DNA of 37,101 nt, taken from the IMG/VR virus record IMGVR_UViG_3300017989_000232, positions 1-37,101 of that record. One strand, given 5' to 3'. Every line of letters starts with the position of its first letter. Position 1 is the stretch's first letter. This document shows positions 27,111-36,942 of the stretch, one piece after another. Below the pieces are notes generated by a model, which worked only from the letters and a program-made list of their open reading frames with translations, was not told the DNA's origin and did not search any database. The translations under genes were made by a program, and so were the position numbers. Source of the stretch: a virus.

Positions 27111-28145
27111 TCAGGCAAATAATCCCGGCTGCGCCTCTTCGGCCTCGATGCGAGGTATGGCCAGGGCGTTAATATACTCTTCGTTAATTTCGATGCCGAT
27201 AAATTTACAATCAAGTTTCAGCGCAACCATGCCCGTAGTGGCCGCGCCCATAAATGGATCCATGACGGTACCGCCAGCCGGGCAGCCGGCCTTGATACAC
27301 GGATCGACAAGCCGCGGCGGATAGGTTGCGAAATGCGCCCCCGAAAACGGCGCGGTCGGAATCGTCCAAACGGTGCGCTTATTTCTGGAATCTACCAAAC
27401 CGCTAACCGCCGCGCTAAACGATTCGTTTTGTTTCGGCCGGCCTCTCTCGCGTCCTTTCTTATGGATAGCGCCATGCCCCCCTTGACCTTTCGATGTATC
27501 CCATCCGTCCGGTGTTTTCCATGCTTTTGCTTTTGGGTTCACGCCATGCCCGCGCGAATTGGTAGTTCCCGTGACGGGTTCTTTAATCGCCGCCGCATCA
27601 TAAAAATATTTTGGCGACTTGCTCATCAGAAAAATATACTCGTGCGCCTTTGTCGGTCGATCCGTAACGCTTTCCGGCATCGGGTTCGACTTGTGCCAGA
27701 TTATATCTGATCGTAAATACCACCCGTCTGCTTGAAGCGCGAAGGCAACGCGCCATGGGATGCCGATGATATCTTTGGGTTTGAGGCCATCAGGAACCGA
27801 ATGCCCCCTCTTCGTCATTGCCCCGATCCGTTTCGGTGTACCCTGGATTGACTTTGTTCCACCCGTATTGCTGGATGCCGCGTATGAATCGCCCAAGTTC
27901 AGCCACAGCGTTCCATCGCATCGCAGCACCCGCCGCACCTCCGCAAAAATTTCCACCATTTTTTCCACGTATTCCTCCGGTGTGGATTCCATGCCGAGCT
28001 GCCCGGCCATTCCATAATCCCGCAATCCCCAATATGGCGGTGACGTGACACAACATTGCACGCTTTCTTCCGACAATCCACGAAGAATATCGAGCGCGTC
28101 GCCGTGGTAGACGGCCGTCCGATCGGTTTTATATATGACCGTCAT
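27111..28145 (-). CDS. DNA amino-methyltransferase (beta class, SPPY)
   Basis: A 344-aa methyltransferase. Motif IV TSPPYWG is at 34-40 and the SAM-binding motif I DPFMGAATTG at 296-305, an order of the beta class. SPPY is typical of cytosine-N4 (or adenine-N6) methylation. The middle region 130-260, including HKKGRERGRPKQNES, probably holds the target-recognition part. It would modify phage or host DNA and protect it from restriction. The ATG follows a GGAG-AAAAAGG region. A PAPS-reductase-like gene precedes it by 38 bases. Confidence 0.88.
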   Translation of the reverse strand: MTVIYKTDRTAVYHGDALDILRGLSEESVQCCVTSPPYWGLRDYGMAGQLGMESTPEEYVEKMVEIFAEVRRVLRCDGTLWLNLGDSYAASSNTGGTKSIQGTPKRIGAMTKRGHSVPDGLKPKDIIGIPWRVAFALQADGWYLRSDIIWHKSNPMPESVTDRPTKAHEYIFLMSKSPKYFYDAAAIKEPVTGTTNSRGHGVNPKAKAWKTPDGWDTSKGQGGHGAIHKKGRERGRPKQNESFSAAVSGLVDSRNKRTVWTIPTAPFSGAHFATYPPRLVDPCIKAGCPAGGTVMDPFMGAATTGMVALKLDCKFIGIEINEEYINALAIPRIEAEEAQPGLFA

Positions 28146-28183
28146 TCCTTTTTCTCCAAATCATCCGCGCGCCCAGGATGCCA

Positions 28184-29128
28184 TTACAAATTAAATAAAT
28201 CCATCTGCCCGGATGGCTCTGATGGTATGCCGCAATGCCGCAATACCTCGCGCAGTCCCAATTTATCCATGCAATATTTCCATGCCTTCGGATGCGTTTT
28301 ATACATTAGCTGAAATCGGTTTGGCTCTTTTTCAAGATGAACGCCGAACATACAAAACATGCAGCCCGTGCGCGTATATCCCATATCGTAAATTTTGCTG
28401 TACGGTACGCCGAAACGCCTAACATATTCCCAAATATCCGCATCCGACCAAAAAGCCAGCGGCGTAGAGCGAGGCGTTTTTATCTCGTAGGCATTGCATC
28501 CAAAAGAAAGATACGTCTGCTTTCGCTGGCTTGCCTCGTCCGCCCGCGTCCCGATGAATGGCGCGCCATATTCTTTCTGCGCGAGTTTTGCCGGATTCTT
28601 TTTCATAATATCGCAGCATTTGCCGCTGATCTTAAATGGAGCTGAGCAAAGATACTGCCACTTTTTAGAAATCATCGACATTTCAGAACGTCGGCCAGCC
28701 GTATTTATTCCAGTAAGCCGCAAGCGCTTTGTTGCCGTTTCGCCTTTTGCAGATCTTACCTCATGGATATATTGAGCGTTTCTCTTTGAAATAACCGGAT
28801 AACCGTATACCCTCAATACCTCAATAAAATTCATTTTAGGGCGAACCCATTTAACGCCAGGCGTATTCTTTACGTGCTCTCTGATTTCTGGATATTCAAG
28901 CCCGGTATCAGCAAAAACTGCAGGTACATCAGGAAACGCAAGCCCGGCAGGATTATTGCGCACGAGATGCAATAGTACCGTGGAATCCATCCCTCCCGAA
29001 AAAGATACGCATACCTTTCCGCCGTGATGGTTATACCACTGCTCAATTTTACAGGCGGATGCCTGTATCTTTTCATCGAGCGTCCAGGATTTTCGGCGAT
29101 CGAATTCCTTTTCACTTATGCGCGCCAT
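28184..29128 (-). CDS. PAPS/APS reductase-family PP-loop enzyme
   Basis: A 314-aa protein of the adenine-nucleotide alpha-hydrolase fold. The PP-loop SFSGGMDST is at 42-50. Cys171-Cys172 (GKCCDIMKKNP) and C256xxC259 (GCMFC) match the iron-sulfur ligand pattern of assimilatory APS reductases, and Cys161 and Cys299 (RHCGIP) are also present. The fold activates sulfur or releases sulfite from nucleotides; related enzymes (DndC) act in DNA sulfur modification. Being between two DNA methyltransferases suggests a role with nucleic acid. Activity in the phage is not shown. Confidence 0.78.
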   Translation of the reverse strand: MARISEKEFDRRKSWTLDEKIQASACKIEQWYNHHGGKVCVSFSGGMDSTVLLHLVRNNPAGLAFPDVPAVFADTGLEYPEIREHVKNTPGVKWVRPKMNFIEVLRVYGYPVISKRNAQYIHEVRSAKGETATKRLRLTGINTAGRRSEMSMISKKWQYLCSAPFKISGKCCDIMKKNPAKLAQKEYGAPFIGTRADEASQRKQTYLSFGCNAYEIKTPRSTPLAFWSDADIWEYVRRFGVPYSKIYDMGYTRTGCMFCMFGVHLEKEPNRFQLMYKTHPKAWKYCMDKLGLREVLRHCGIPSEPSGQMDLFNL

Positions 29129-29172
29129 CTTTGCCTTCTAACTCGGTAACGCGCATTCCGCCCGCAACCAAA

Positions 29173-30192
29173 TCAAAATAACCGCATTTGCTCGCCATCG
29201 CCCAGCGCTTCAATCTCTACGCGAGCACGGCCCACGATACGCCGCTCTGCAATCTCAAAATAATTAGCATCAATTTCGATGCCGATAAAACCACGGCTCG
29301 TATCCCTCGCAGCCACGCCGGTGCTGCCGCTGCCCATCGTCAAATCGACCACCAAATCGCCCGCATTACTGAACGTCTTTATTAAATCCTTTAACAAAGC
29401 GACAGGCTTTTGGGTCGGATGGTAGCCGCTATAATCCTTTTTGTATCGCAAAATATTGGATTTATACCGGCCGCCCTCCCACAAGTTAAAGGTGCTGGGG
29501 AATTTCTCATTCATTTCTCGCAGCAGCCCATCCCGATAAGAGGTATCAATTTTTTTTAAGTCCGCATATTCCCGGTTAAAATATCCCGTCGATTGTAACT
29601 TTGCATAATTATCCGCAGTGGGCAAACAAAACTGCACGCCGCCAGTGAAGTAATGGCCGCCCATTTCATTGCCGAGAATATTCCTTATGCTCGCATTCGT
29701 AAGCCCCGCCTCTTCTTTTTCATCCAGAAAATAGCCCCTCAGCGGATGCGACCCATCGAAATCATATTTATGATTATTCTTGCTGAAAACAAGAACATCC
29801 TCGAAGAAAGCAACCGGGGCTTTTTTGGCGATTAAACTATTGGCAAAATGATCTTTTTCCCAAATCATGGGATAAGAAAACGGAATGCTCGGCAGCGCTT
29901 TGTTTTTTAATTCCGTGCTGAACGGATCCTGGCTGAACAAAACCATCTTGCCGTTTTTTCGCAGTATCCGATTTGCTATTTCATAAATTCTTTCTGTTTC
30001 AATAACGAAATCCCAGCACGTTTTACCCTGCATGCCATGCGATATATTTTCGCCATCGCCTATATCACGAACGACTCCATAAGGCAGATCGGACAAGATA
30101 AGGTCAACGCTTCCGTCTGCGATTTTATCGCTTTCGATCAAACAATCGCCGCGGTAGATGGTCGTTTGTTCCGATGAATGAATGATAGTCAT
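29173..30192 (-). CDS. Second DNA amino-methyltransferase (DLPY variant)
   Basis: A 339-aa protein from ATG 30192, in an ATGA overlap with the upstream gene; a much longer reading from 30390 is not supported. Motif IV is SDLPYG (DLPY at 35-38), a variant of the DPPY seen in adenine-N6 enzymes, and motif I is near the C-terminus (DLVVDLTMGSGSTG). The IWEKDH and AFFEDVLVFSK segments are typical of phage adenine methyltransferases. It is A+T-richer than the structural genes. It would give a second methylation specificity. Confidence 0.87.
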   Translation of the reverse strand: MTIIHSSEQTTIYRGDCLIESDKIADGSVDLILSDLPYGVVRDIGDGENISHGMQGKTCWDFVIETERIYEIANRILRKNGKMVLFSQDPFSTELKNKALPSIPFSYPMIWEKDHFANSLIAKKAPVAFFEDVLVFSKNNHKYDFDGSHPLRGYFLDEKEEAGLTNASIRNILGNEMGGHYFTGGVQFCLPTADNYAKLQSTGYFNREYADLKKIDTSYRDGLLREMNEKFPSTFNLWEGGRYKSNILRYKKDYSGYHPTQKPVALLKDLIKTFSNAGDLVVDLTMGSGSTGVAARDTSRGFIGIEIDANYFEIAERRIVGRARVEIEALGDGEQMRLF

Positions 30193-30404
30193 TCCTTTTT
30201 TTCCAATTCGCTTACGCGCCGCTCCGCAATCACCCGCGCGTACAAGCTCTTCGAAAGCTGCGCGCGCGTTTTGTAATAGCGTTCGCGCCACGAATCGCAT
30301 TCTGATTGCATGGCGGCGAGGCGTAATTTCAGGCTGGCGCATTCCGCGCATCCATCCTGCTGCGGCAGCTTGATTCCTCTGTGTTTGCAATATTCATCTT
30401 GCAT
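30189..30404 (-). CDS. Small coiled-coil Cys protein
   Basis: A 71-aa protein from ATG 30404 after AAAGGGG. It has YCKHRGIKL and CAECASLKLR near the start, a zinc-like CxxC pattern, and a long charged helix after it (KTRAQLSKSLYARVIAERRV). An in-frame extension to 30716 would overlap the upstream gene and is rejected. It overlaps the second methyltransferase by ATGA, so it may be a partner or regulator of that enzyme. Confidence 0.6.
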   Translation of the reverse strand: MQDEYCKHRGIKLPQQDGCAECASLKLRLAAMQSECDSWRERYYKTRAQLSKSLYARVIAERRVSELEKKE

Positions 30405-32685: not shown

Positions 32686-33102
32686 TTAACTTCCGTGCTT
32701 CTGAAAACTCCGCACTTTTTTGGGGTCGGAGACTTGATTTTCAAAATAAGGGCGCAAGACAATTTCGCCCCCATTTATGATTTCATAAATCCATTTTGCG
32801 CGCTCACGTATTGCCATACCCCAAAATTTTGCACCAGCAGATACACGATGATATCCACGAAAAGCAATAACTTTTATTGCCCATGGCATATGATCATCAG
32901 GCAACGGATATTTATAATCAAAACCGATAATATTAGACTTGGCTACATCAAATAAATCTTGATCGTATGTGCTACAATTTCTATGCCATCCAATCATCGG
33001 CCTGCCCTTTTCGCACTGAAAATACAATAGGATTCTTTCCGTATTTTTTTCTTCATTCATCGGAAAACCACAATAAGCGCAATATGGAATTTTTTTAGGC
33101 AT
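32686..33102 (-). CDS. Zinc-finger-like protein inserted between terminase genes
   Basis: A 138-aa A+T-rich gene with CAYCGFPM near the start and WHRNC at 39-43, giving a CxxC plus H..C zinc-binding layout. The rest (NIIGFDYKYPLPDDHMPWAI, ERAKWIYEIINGGEIVLR) has no match I know. It overlaps the small terminase gene by eight bases and ends four bases before the large terminase. Base composition and position suggest an acquired gene. Confidence 0.6.
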   Translation of the reverse strand: MPKKIPYCAYCGFPMNEEKNTERILLYFQCEKGRPMIGWHRNCSTYDQDLFDVAKSNIIGFDYKYPLPDDHMPWAIKVIAFRGYHRVSAGAKFWGMAIRERAKWIYEIINGGEIVLRPYFENQVSDPKKVRSFQKHGS

Positions 33103-33904
33103 CGCTTTTTCCCTTTCGTGAATTTATGGTCTTCTTTTTCTTCTTCTTTACCTTTTTCTTTTTCGCGGGCCGCGCGCTTTTCGCCGCCGGCCGTGCGCCG
33201 CGTGCGGAGGTCTTTGCTTTCTTCTTCTTGACCTTTTTCTTTTTCGCCCGCCGCGCGCTGTCCGCCGGCAGCTTATCGCCGCGCGCAAAGGCTTCTATTA
33301 TTTCCACCACAAAGCCCGTAAGCCGATCTTCTATTTCGCGGCGGTCATCCATTGCGGCCAATATCGGCGCGGCGCGGCGCGGCAATGCCAGCATGCCGGC
33401 CTTAACCGTCTGGATGCGCTCCACGCGCTCGCGGATCACCTGCTCTACGGGCATAAGCAATTCCTTCAGCTTCGATACGTGGATTTCTTTTTCTTCCGCG
33501 CGCGCCAGCTCCCAGCGCTCGCGCGCCTCCGCATTCACCACCGGCGCGCCGCCGCCTTCATCAAGCCATCGCGATTTCAACCACGGCAGGCAGACGAAAA
33601 GATTGTAACTGACACGGCGATCGCCCCCGCGATTCCGTGGCATGCCATCCGATTCCCAGTCGAGCACCACTTTCCGATCGGTATCGAGCAGCTCAACAAA
33701 TACAGTTTGAGATATTGCCGATAACGTATTCCGTAAATCGACCTGCCTTATTCGTTCCTCGTGCTTACGTATAATTGTAATTTCCCGCGTATTTAAACTG
33801 CCGGCGCCTTTTTCCCGGCGCTTCCGCAAAATTCTATCCATGCGCGCACGATCGGCAGCATCTGCAACCGATTCGTTATCGCCCGATGGAATCTTCCGCG
33901 CCAT
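33095..33904 (-). CDS. terS: Small terminase-like protein with lysine-rich tail
   Basis: A 269-aa protein. The first ~215 residues are helical and charged, with the terminase-like segment LPWLKSRWLDEGGGAPVVNA and a helix ELARAEEKEIHVSKLKELL resembling Nu1-type small terminases. The last ~50 residues are lysine-rich: two copies of AKKKKVKKKK separated by SARGARP and PAAKSARP-like units, encoded by an 81-bp DNA repeat. The tail may bind DNA non-specifically like a histone tail. The gene starts after GGGGTAAG and precedes the large terminase by one inserted gene. Confidence 0.65.
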   Translation of the reverse strand: MARKIPSGDNESVADAADRARMDRILRKRREKGAGSLNTREITIIRKHEERIRQVDLRNTLSAISQTVFVELLDTDRKVVLDWESDGMPRNRGGDRRVSYNLFVCLPWLKSRWLDEGGGAPVVNAEARERWELARAEEKEIHVSKLKELLMPVEQVIRERVERIQTVKAGMLALPRRAAPILAAMDDRREIEDRLTGFVVEIIEAFARGDKLPADSARRAKKKKVKKKKAKTSARGARPAAKSARPAKKKKVKKKKKKTINSRKGKSDA

Positions 33905-33906
33905 AC

Positions 33907-34836
33907 TTACCCCGCAACGTCAGGAAACAACCGAACGCACAAATCCGCCGGCCATTCCGCCGGATTATTGCCCTTTGACGCCCGCGGCCACTTCTTGTCA
34001 AGCATCCATATTCCGCATTCTTCCCGTTCGTGCTCGGTCATTCTTGTGGGGTTTGATCCGATTTGTTTCATATAAACCGGAATGCACGCCCGTTGACACT
34101 GATCTATAATCATGCGCGGCCATTCCAAATCCATAACGCGCGCGCCCGGCCCGCTCTCGCCGCCGATGATAACCCAATCGAGCATGGGCATTTCTTTCCC
34201 GTCCTGCTCAAAATAAATCAAATCCTTACGGTGCCGGTACCACAATCCAAGTCCGTGCAAATCGAGGGATCCCAATAACGGCTCCGCGCTGACATACCTC
34301 ACGCTTGCCGGCACCTGCAACAATAAAGGTATACGTTCCTCCGCGGTCTTTTGATCCTCGACCGAAACGCCAAACCAAATATGAGGCATCAGCGCAAACG
34401 CACTGCACGAGCACGGCGACCGCTGCACCTGCATCGCGGACGGCCACTCAACTTCCTTCGCAACCTCCCGCGCAATCCCAAAATATTCCAGCGCCCGCGC
34501 CGGCCGCTTCGTAAGCACCTGGAATATGTGCCGCGGGCAATTACCCATAACGCGAAAAACCTCATGAATAAAATAGAAAGGCACATCCTCGTGAAACAGA
34601 TCGCCCATCAGGCACACCGCGATTTTCCGCGGCTTTTTCCACCGATAAGGTTGATCCAATTTATCTTGGCGCAACGTTACCCGAAACGGATCGCACGAAT
34701 CGTATCCGTTCCGTCCACGCTGACGCGTCGCCATACGCTTCGCCCAGCAATTTTTGCACCCGGCCGAAACCGGCGAACATCCCGTCATCGGATTCCACGT
34801 GGTATCAGTCCATTCGATTTTGCTATTTAAGACCAT
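33907..34836 (-). CDS. DUF5131 (Gp37/Gp68) three-cysteine protein
   Basis: A 309-aa protein. Its start, IEWTDTTWNPMTGC, then SPVSAGCKNCWA, gives Cys20, Cys27 and Cys30 in a C-x6-C-x2-C cluster, the signature of the phage Gp37/Gp68 (DUF5131) family, which looks like radical-SAM-type enzymes. Further family-like segments are FGVSVEDQKTAEERIPLLL and WVIIGGESGPGARVMDLEW. The family often sits near DNA-modification genes. The ATG follows AAGGGGG and overlaps the methyltransferase gene by 14 bases. The reaction is not established. Confidence 0.85.
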   Translation of the reverse strand: MVLNSKIEWTDTTWNPMTGCSPVSAGCKNCWAKRMATRQRGRNGYDSCDPFRVTLRQDKLDQPYRWKKPRKIAVCLMGDLFHEDVPFYFIHEVFRVMGNCPRHIFQVLTKRPARALEYFGIAREVAKEVEWPSAMQVQRSPCSCSAFALMPHIWFGVSVEDQKTAEERIPLLLQVPASVRYVSAEPLLGSLDLHGLGLWYRHRKDLIYFEQDGKEMPMLDWVIIGGESGPGARVMDLEWPRMIIDQCQRACIPVYMKQIGSNPTRMTEHEREECGIWMLDKKWPRASKGNNPAEWPADLCVRLFPDVAG

Positions 34837-35968
34837 TGGTGATTCCCCCTTTTAATAATCCCTCAACATCCCCCAACATTTGAACGCCGGGGAAACGCGC
34901 TGCATATACCGCCTGCGCGCGCGTATATATTTCACTGGCCCACAGCACCTTGATTTTTTCGCGCTCGGCAGCCAGGCCAAAGCCACCGATTCCGCTAAAT
35001 AATTCGCCCATGGTGCGCACTCCAGCCGCCGCCAAACGGCGAATAATCCACTGCACCACAGGAACGGCCACGGCGTTTCCGATCATCTTATAGCGCGCGC
35101 TGTCGCTCATGGGTCTGCCATTAAAGGGTACCTGTGTCCAATCGTCAGGAAAGCCCTGCAGGCGCTCGCATTCGCGCGGGGTTAGACGTCGTACGCCAAA
35201 TTGACCGACAATACCCGGCGGAGTCTGCGTTCCGCTTTCCGTAGCGCCGAGCGTCGGGCTTTGTTCGGACCGGTAGCCGATACTCCTGGCGGCCGCGCCC
35301 TGGCCCCGCTTGAATGAAGCGACCAGAAAATCAGCCTCATTACACTGTCCCGCTGGCCGTGCCGTACCGGCCCCGGAAGCCGCAAGCGTACCGGCTACAA
35401 CAAGCGGTGTTCCCCTTCCGGTACCATCTTCGCTTGCATCGAATCCTTCACCGCGTAGCGTATGCGCCACTAAATGTCCGGCTTGGTCTTGGTTGTCATC
35501 TGCGCCACATGTTCCAACGCTGCTTGCAGATAGGGCGGTAACGACCGCCCCCTCTTCTCGGCACGGCGGAGAATGCCCCGACATGCCTTCGGGCTCAAAT
35601 AATATTTCTGGTGGACACGGGGCTCCAAGACGGCAGACAATAAACACGCGCTCCCGCCGCTGCGCCAAGCCGAACCATTGTGCATCCAGACTTGCCCACG
35701 CCACACCGTACCCGAGTTCATCCAACGCGGCCAGCGCGACGGTGAAGTCTCGCCCATTTGCACCAGTTGGCGAAGATCGAAATCCGGGAACATTCTCAAG
35801 GAGAAGCCAGCGCGGTCGTAACCGCTTGGCAATTCGGATAATTCCCCAGAAGAGTCCGGATCGTTTTCCATCAAGCCCCCCACGCTTCCCCGCCACGCTC
35901 AAATCCTGGCATGGAAAGCCAGCCGTAATTAAATCGGGCACCTGCATGCTATCCTCAATATGGACCAT
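34823..35968 (-). CDS. Circularly permuted cytosine-C5 DNA methyltransferase
   Basis: A 381-aa enzyme with all key motifs of m5C methyltransferases but in permuted order. It starts with motif IV (AGFPCQDLSVAGK, Cys20), then VI (ENV, 58-60), VIII (QRR, 103-105), a target-recognition region at about 115-255, IX (RLTPRECERLQGFP, 261-274) and X (GNAV, 297-300). Only then does motif I follow (ELFSGIGGFGL, 322-332), ending with the strand SEIY and FPGVQMLGDVEG. The break lies between motifs III and IV. A possible internal start at 35011 has GGAG eight bases upstream, so the C-terminal part might also be made alone. Confidence 0.85.
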   Translation of the reverse strand: MVHIEDSMQVPDLITAGFPCQDLSVAGKRGGLDGKRSGLFWGIIRIAKRLRPRWLLLENVPGFRSSPTGANGRDFTVALAALDELGYGVAWASLDAQWFGLAQRRERVFIVCRLGAPCPPEILFEPEGMSGHSPPCREEGAVVTALSASSVGTCGADDNQDQAGHLVAHTLRGEGFDASEDGTGRGTPLVVAGTLAASGAGTARPAGQCNEADFLVASFKRGQGAAARSIGYRSEQSPTLGATESGTQTPPGIVGQFGVRRLTPRECERLQGFPDDWTQVPFNGRPMSDSARYKMIGNAVAVPVVQWIIRRLAAAGVRTMGELFSGIGGFGLAAEREKIKVLWASEIYTRAQAVYAARFPGVQMLGDVEGLLKGGITNGLK

Positions 35969-35976
35969 TAAAGACC

Positions 35977-36336
35977 CTATTCCTCTTCCTCACAAAAAAA
36001 ACAATGGAGCGCGTAAATATATGACATATGCGCCCGCGAAAGCGCGTAGCATTCCGGGCAATTTCCCGGATCGTATTTGTGCGTATGGCCCATCAATGGA
36101 TACAGGTGCCGCCGCAACACCACAAGGGGCGTTGCACAGCATAGCGACTCCCCCGTTATCTTAAAAATAGGACACGCCAGACAGGTACCACCATCGAAAA
36201 ACCTACGGCACAGCGGGCCTTCCCCGATCGTTGGTTCCGGCATACCATTTTCAATATTGATTGCCCACGCGCCAGCCGCTTCCAGCAGCGCAACCCCTTC
36301 CTCCCCGGTCAGTTTAATTTTTTCGCTTGCCGGCAT
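35977..36336 (-). CDS. Cys-rich hypothetical protein
   Basis: A 119-aa protein with many cysteines (LCRRFF, GGTCLACPIF, LCCATPL, NCPECYALS, CFFCEEEE), probably binding one or two metal ions. It is the first gene of the late/modification block and starts after AAAGGGGAAAG. No family is recognised. Position before the permuted methyltransferase suggests it belongs to the modification genes. Confidence 0.62.
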   Translation of the reverse strand: MPASEKIKLTGEEGVALLEAAGAWAINIENGMPEPTIGEGPLCRRFFDGGTCLACPIFKITGESLCCATPLVVLRRHLYPLMGHTHKYDPGNCPECYALSRAHMSYIYALHCFFCEEEE

Positions 36337-36799: not shown

Positions 36800-36810
36800 G
36801 GCCCCGTCGC

Positions 36811-36942
36811 CGCGCATCTGCTGGCGGACGGCCACCGCGGCAGGAGCCCGCCGGGGCAAGGCCGCCCCGGCACCGCCGCGCATCTGCTGGCGGACGGCCA
36901 CCGCAGCAGGAGCCCGCCGGGGCAAGGCCGCCCCGGCGCCGC
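36811..36942. repeat. Two tandem 66-bp repeats, each with a hairpin
   Basis: Copies at 36811-36876 and 36877-36942 differ at two positions. Each contains GCCGGGGC and GCCCCGGC as a perfect eight-base-pair stem around AAGGCC (36850-36871 and 36916-36937). The array is contiguous and has no spacers. Confidence 0.8.

Follow-up and report, generated by a model that had tools for sequence, protein, structure and literature searches.

Organization of the locus

The window, by which we mean the whole analyzed stretch of 37,101 nucleotides (IMG/VR record IMGVR_UViG_3300017989_000232), carries on its minus strand an m5C DNA methyltransferase gene whose motifs, as read from the protein, follow the order IV-VI-VIII-TRD-IX-X-I-II-III, where TRD is the variable, or target-recognition, region. 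The catalytic half of the gene is overlapped by an ORF in the +1 frame. Motifs IV to X and the TRD were located by protein reading and alignment, and the relocated motifs I–III also with the AlphaFold2 model. The features of the locus are listed below.

34823..35968, minus strand: circularly permuted m5C DNA methyltransferase gene, 381 aa, a single open frame from ATG to TAG
35903..35917, minus strand: motif IV, GFPCQ, with the catalytic Cys20, 20 residues from the N-terminus
35789..35797, minus strand: motif VI, ENV, residues 58–60
35648..35662, minus strand: motif VIII, QRRER, residues 103–107
35201..35611, minus strand: variable (target-recognition) region, about residues 120–256
35138..35191, minus strand: motif IX, RRLTPRECERLQGFPDDW, residues 260–277
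35069..35104, minus strand: motif X, DSARYKMIGNAV, residues 289–300 (GNAV, 297–300)
34865..35011, minus strand: relocated C-terminal motifs I–III, residues 320–368, including a non-conserved internal ATG at 35011
35220..35442, minus strand: 223-bp TRD stretch missing from the near-identical contig L002, where its loss frameshifts the methyltransferase and spares the overlapping ORF
35470..35883, minus strand: overlapping +1-frame ORF, 137 aa, ending ...QKYYLSPKACRGILRRAEKRGRSLPPYLQAALEHVAQMTTKTKPDI, over the catalytic half of the methyltransferase

An alternative start of the methyltransferase gene, ATG 35947 preceded by GAGG, is as plausible as ATG 35968. The relocated motifs are I (LFSGIGG, residues 323–329), II (WASEI, 343–347) and III (LGDV, 365–368), and the stop follows residue 381. 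The protein matches the Pfam family DNA_methylase (PF00145) with E 9.5e-61, and the permutation is visible in the match itself, the best stretch of which pairs protein residues 9–312 with profile positions 59–322. The catalytic and SAM motifs of a PF00145 C5-cytosine DNA methyltransferase are all present, namely the catalytic PC of motif IV, ENV of VI, QRRxR of VIII, motifs IX and X, and the SAM motif I.

Canonical phage C5-MTases (PHROG 116 / PF00145; for example L259, L008 and L006) have the same motifs and the same kind of TRD, but in them the order I–X is normal. After rotation, with RTMGELF... placed first, the window enzyme was aligned to such enzymes over residues 2–372 of 374 with about 40–44% identity; the bit score against L259 was 266 for the rotated and 224 for the unrotated sequence. 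At the junction, the C-terminus ...RFPGVQMLGDVEG followed by the N-terminus VPDLITAGFPC aligns to ...HWPAVKNFGDIHG INTPPTVDVLTGGFPC of L259, so that the N-terminus does continue the C-terminus, as the original prediction had claimed. The motif order and the break between III and IV that it had proposed are confirmed by the motif reading and by the rotated end-to-end alignment. The window ORF is thus a complete m5C methyltransferase, circularly permuted with its break between III and IV.

Position of the break and known permutations

In natural permuted C5-MTases, according to a 2018 REBASE survey, the cut always lies in the variable region and in no case at the II/III loop (PMC5944983). M.BssHII, M.Alw26I, M2.Eco31I, M.Esp3I and M2.BsaI are natural permuted enzymes of Type H/J; in M.BssHII the cut in the variable region places IX and X before I–VIII (PMC5944983). 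These enzymes resemble that of the window in having motif X before I in one chain, but they are cut in the variable region, whereas the window enzyme is cut between III and IV. A topology of the M.BssHII kind is therefore rejected. The original prediction had cited M.BssHII as a precedent, rightly insofar as natural permutation of this class is known, but the cut lies elsewhere. Since the known natural permutations all fall in the variable region, the window topology differs from the known natural one.

In Type C of Albert et al. 2018 the new N-terminus lies between III and IV, and III is at the C-terminus (PMC5944983). The window enzyme has exactly this arrangement. Albert et al. 2018 engineered C5-MTases permuted at the II/III loop, the best of which had approximately wild-type activity (PMC5944983). 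An earlier directed-evolution study had yielded active M.HaeIII permutants that start in the II–III interval, within III, or in the III–IV interval, and so belong to Types B and C (PMC5944983). The engineered Type B/C permutants of M.MpeI, M.SssI and M.HaeIII share their new N-termini with the window enzyme (III/IV) or with the gut-phage clade described below (II/III); they are laboratory-made, several of them active, whereas the window enzyme is natural. Together with its relative from contigs L003 and L004, it is a natural Type C enzyme, a topology earlier reported in the open-access literature only for engineered enzymes.

Permuted relatives in phages

A search of phages for permuted m5C enzymes, suggested along with the original prediction, was made with the X-I junction and yielded a separate Type B clade. 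The Type C enzyme of L003/L004, contigs from other samples, is 61% identical to that of the window over the aligned protein and has the same order, the same break and an intact frame; a broken pair of this enzyme is found in L005/L257, also from other samples. The chain of the Type B enzymes begins with motif III (MKHLGDITK...), and the stop follows motif II (...TKxRFGEE). These enzymes are carried by Faecalibacterium phages FP_Toutatis and Lelie, several human-gut phage contigs and a Subdoligranulum replicon (L242–L250, L318–L397). Like the window enzyme, they are natural, phage-borne and permuted near motif III; unlike it, they are broken before III, which stays with IV, form a separate clade and are often split or frameshifted.

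In two IMG/VR scans with junction profiles, motif X was joined to I in at least 76 ORF entries. Single intact permuted ORFs account for 23 of the 76 listed (two of these being the L003/L004 Type C gene again), and the other 53 have their parts spread over different frames or ORFs, or come from contigs on which the rest is missing. Where X and I are joined, the enzyme parts are in different frames or ORFs in over two thirds of the cases (L318–L397, L242–L250, L405–L412). A further scan with the L003 junction gave L405–L412, all Type B, and no additional Type C among the matches listed. The distinct Type C phages among the matches listed are thus two, that of the window and that of L003/L004. 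The original prediction had called the permutation uncommon. This holds for the III/IV break, which among the matches listed is confined to the window and L003 clades; the sister topology, broken ahead of III, is common among phages of the gut and rumen.

The P7 dam gene was also considered as a permuted enzyme, as tblastn matched residues 7–344 in one piece, but was rejected because its motif order is canonical.

A tree of 71 enzymes, with the motif regions put in canonical order, was computed by a quick method and leaves many forks open. The C clade (2 rows) and the B clade (16 rows), each with SH-aLRT 99, occupy different places in it. Because each type is a single clade and the two are placed apart, the canonical order must have been altered at least twice. 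The starred branches and the different break points suggest two separate origins of the Type B and Type C permutations.

Reality of the permutation

Two circumstances that would speak against the permutation had been named in advance: an assembly break at the junction, and a separate intact motif I gene upstream with a frameshift. An assembly artefact is rejected, because the 61%-identical enzyme on unrelated contigs (L003/L004) has the same order and break. A frameshifted upstream motif I gene is rejected as well: the upstream ORF 35977–36336 has no family match and no motif I, and no second m5C methyltransferase gene was found in the 37-kb record, where the window gene is the sole match.

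Contig L002 reproduces both new protein ends, with 2 mismatches over the rest of 5 kb, and lacks the 223-bp TRD stretch. Because this deletion causes a frameshift, either some variants can do without the methyltransferase, or the TRD is prone to change or difficult to assemble. The deletion and the many Type B relatives with halves in different frames are what one would expect if the permuted order were an assembly join or the gene a decaying pseudogene. Nevertheless, the frame in the window is open with all motifs, both new ends recur in L002, and L003/L004 keep the frame, order and break at 61% identity, so that this explanation is largely refuted already and we regard it as extremely improbable.

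Structure prediction and the internal start

The AlphaFold2 input was an alignment of permuted relatives and of canonical relatives cut into two pieces. The model of the window methyltransferase has pTM 0.69, with 150 residues at pLDDT 90 or more and the motif I segment at 93–98; residues 144–245, in the variable region, have low confidence. In Foldseek its best matches are M.HhaI structures (E 3e-10), followed by other C5-MTases including M.HaeIII and M.MpeI. The sequential Foldseek alignment to M.HhaI has an RMSD of 13–15 Å, which is expected for a permutation and uninformative on the whole fold. By the model and these matches, the core is predicted to have the C5-MTase fold, the TRD being of low confidence. 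Structure prediction had been proposed as a check of the permutation, and in it the relocated motif I folds confidently within one chain.

The original prediction also raised the possibility that the enzyme works as two pieces, a short motif I–III fragment being made from the internal ATG 35011. The start and its ribosome-binding site are indeed present, with GGAG about eight bases upstream; in related Type B loci the gene is often divided between two ORFs, and fragment complementation is on record for M.MpeI (PMC5944983). However, in the relative L004 the homologous codon is GTC and there is no ATG, hence the internal start is not a conserved feature. The Type B splits, moreover, fall in the catalytic half or the TRD and not before motif I, so that the C-terminal ORF has IX-X-I together, usually with the TRD, and the one-chain model is confident. 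Operation in two pieces thus finds no support in these data, and we consider it very unlikely.

The overlapping +1-frame ORF

The +1 ORF is also present in L003/L004, in Type B enzymes and in P7 dam (L251); its relatives comprise L003–L161, L251, L259, L278, L282 and L318–L397, and it is lost or absent in 7 of the 71 tree rows. The relatives' methyltransferase genes share in this frame the peptide YFLSxKACxGILRRAxKRGKxLPxxLxxAL. The strict motif GIL.RA..RG..LP was found in the +1 frame of 72 of 120 canonical phage/prophage genes, in the +2 frame of none, and never in codon-permuting synonymous shuffles. From motif VI to 38 residues past VIII, the +1 frame of the 120 genes contains 24 stop codons against 254 (sd 14) expected, and 115 of the genes are free of +1 stops in this interval (23 expected). 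The +2 frame shows there only a slight depletion, 398 stops observed vs 433 expected.

Fourfold third-base identity, computed for 121 enzymes, is mostly 0.8–0.98 over methyltransferase residues 110–151. It is elevated from about residue 57 and drops back at the end of the overlapping ORF; over the variable region and most of IX–X it is at the expected 0.25–0.30. Synonymous constraint combined with stop depletion specific to one frame is what an overlapping gene usually leaves as its trace. Judging by these sequence comparisons, the +1 frame of the gene family is under strong purifying selection.

In the named records examined, the +1 ORF is not annotated as a gene of its own. No significant family match was obtained in Pfam and NCBIfam, the only family matching it being PHROG 16143, which is labelled DNA methyltransferase. 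AlphaFold2 gave a confident helical C-terminal segment (residues 98–129) and low confidence elsewhere, and Foldseek with this model gave no significant structural match. No description of an overlapping gene in m5C methyltransferases, or of its peptide motif as text, was found in the open-access literature.

At eight split Type B loci (L320, L323, L333, L358, L365, L380, L384 and L396) the +1 ORF is fused in frame with the TRD-IX-X-I ORF, usually with a possible start codon of its own. The catalytic half is there in another frame, and its ORF was found in seven of the eight. These loci possibly encode a natural two-subunit enzyme.

Probably, the ORF at 35883..35470 is a genuine overprinted, unannotated gene, conserved across phage m5C methyltransferases of very different hosts, with the helical end YLSxKACxGILRRAxxRGKxLPxxLxxAL, whose product works with or regulates the methyltransferase. 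The hosts and records concerned include Vibrio, Mycobacterium, Caulobacter, Streptococcus, gut-phage records and P1/P7-like phages. One could go further and suppose that it is chiefly the +1-frame protein for which this stretch is maintained, and that the methyltransferase here is secondary or inactive: the +1 frame is under strong purifying selection across the family, and the L002 deletion breaks the methyltransferase but spares the +1 ORF. The methyltransferase frame, however, keeps every catalytic motif and is conserved well beyond the overlap, including IX, X and I–III, which makes this supposition very unlikely.

Proposed function and origin

The gene content of the phage includes integrase, terminase, portal, head protease and tail genes and two further amino-methyltransferases. 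The neighbours of the methyltransferase gene are a DUF5131 protein, terminase subunits and hypothetical proteins; no restriction endonuclease was seen among the window genes scanned, which were part of the ORFs.

Several other features of the record were observed. At 27111–30390 on the minus strand, a PAPS-reductase-domain protein lies between two amino-methyltransferases; PADLOC shows weak similarity of this protein to BrxP, SspD and DndC. The terminase small subunit (phrog_57) at 33095–33904, minus strand, has a long lysine/alanine-rich, histone H1-like C-terminal tail. The GC-rich, gene-poor right end contains two 66-bp tandem copies (97%) at 36808–36942. Contig L002 starts at exactly the same base as the right end of the window, 37101; this could reflect either a genuine terminus or a break common to both assemblies.

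Most probably, the gene encodes a single-chain Type C C5-cytosine methyltransferase of a tailed phage that has the ordinary fold and chemistry and would protect the phage DNA. The old N- and C-termini would be joined between X and I and the new ends opened in the III/IV loop, the permuted chain probably still adopting the ordinary C5-MTase fold. Cys20 would attack C6 of cytosine, supported by Glu58 and the arginines of motif VIII, and SAM would be held by the relocated motifs I–III and by X. The phage DNA is most likely methylated at a site set by the variable region, and this methylation may protect the genome from host restriction. In the simplest reading, the protein is likely an orphan phage modification enzyme hiding DNA from restriction. 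Tandem duplication followed by trimming is the probable route to the permutation, which would be independent of the Type B permutation of gut phages.

Significance

Albert et al. 2018 asked why the II/III-loop topology is unused in nature and proposed weaker SAM binding or a need for two intact domains (PMC5944983). The natural Type C enzymes (window and L003) and the abundant natural Type B enzymes of gut phages contradict the pattern of Albert et al. 2018. The sequences are mostly metagenomic and the collections non-exhaustive, and the novelty of Types B and C and of the +1 ORF is judged on the open-access literature. The natural Type B/C enzymes are ready-made proteins for measuring SAM affinity and for tests of the duplication model. 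Should the +1 ORF be translated, the family to which dam/dmt of P1-like phages belongs would hold a gene that has long gone unnoticed, and there it could be tested in a laboratory phage.
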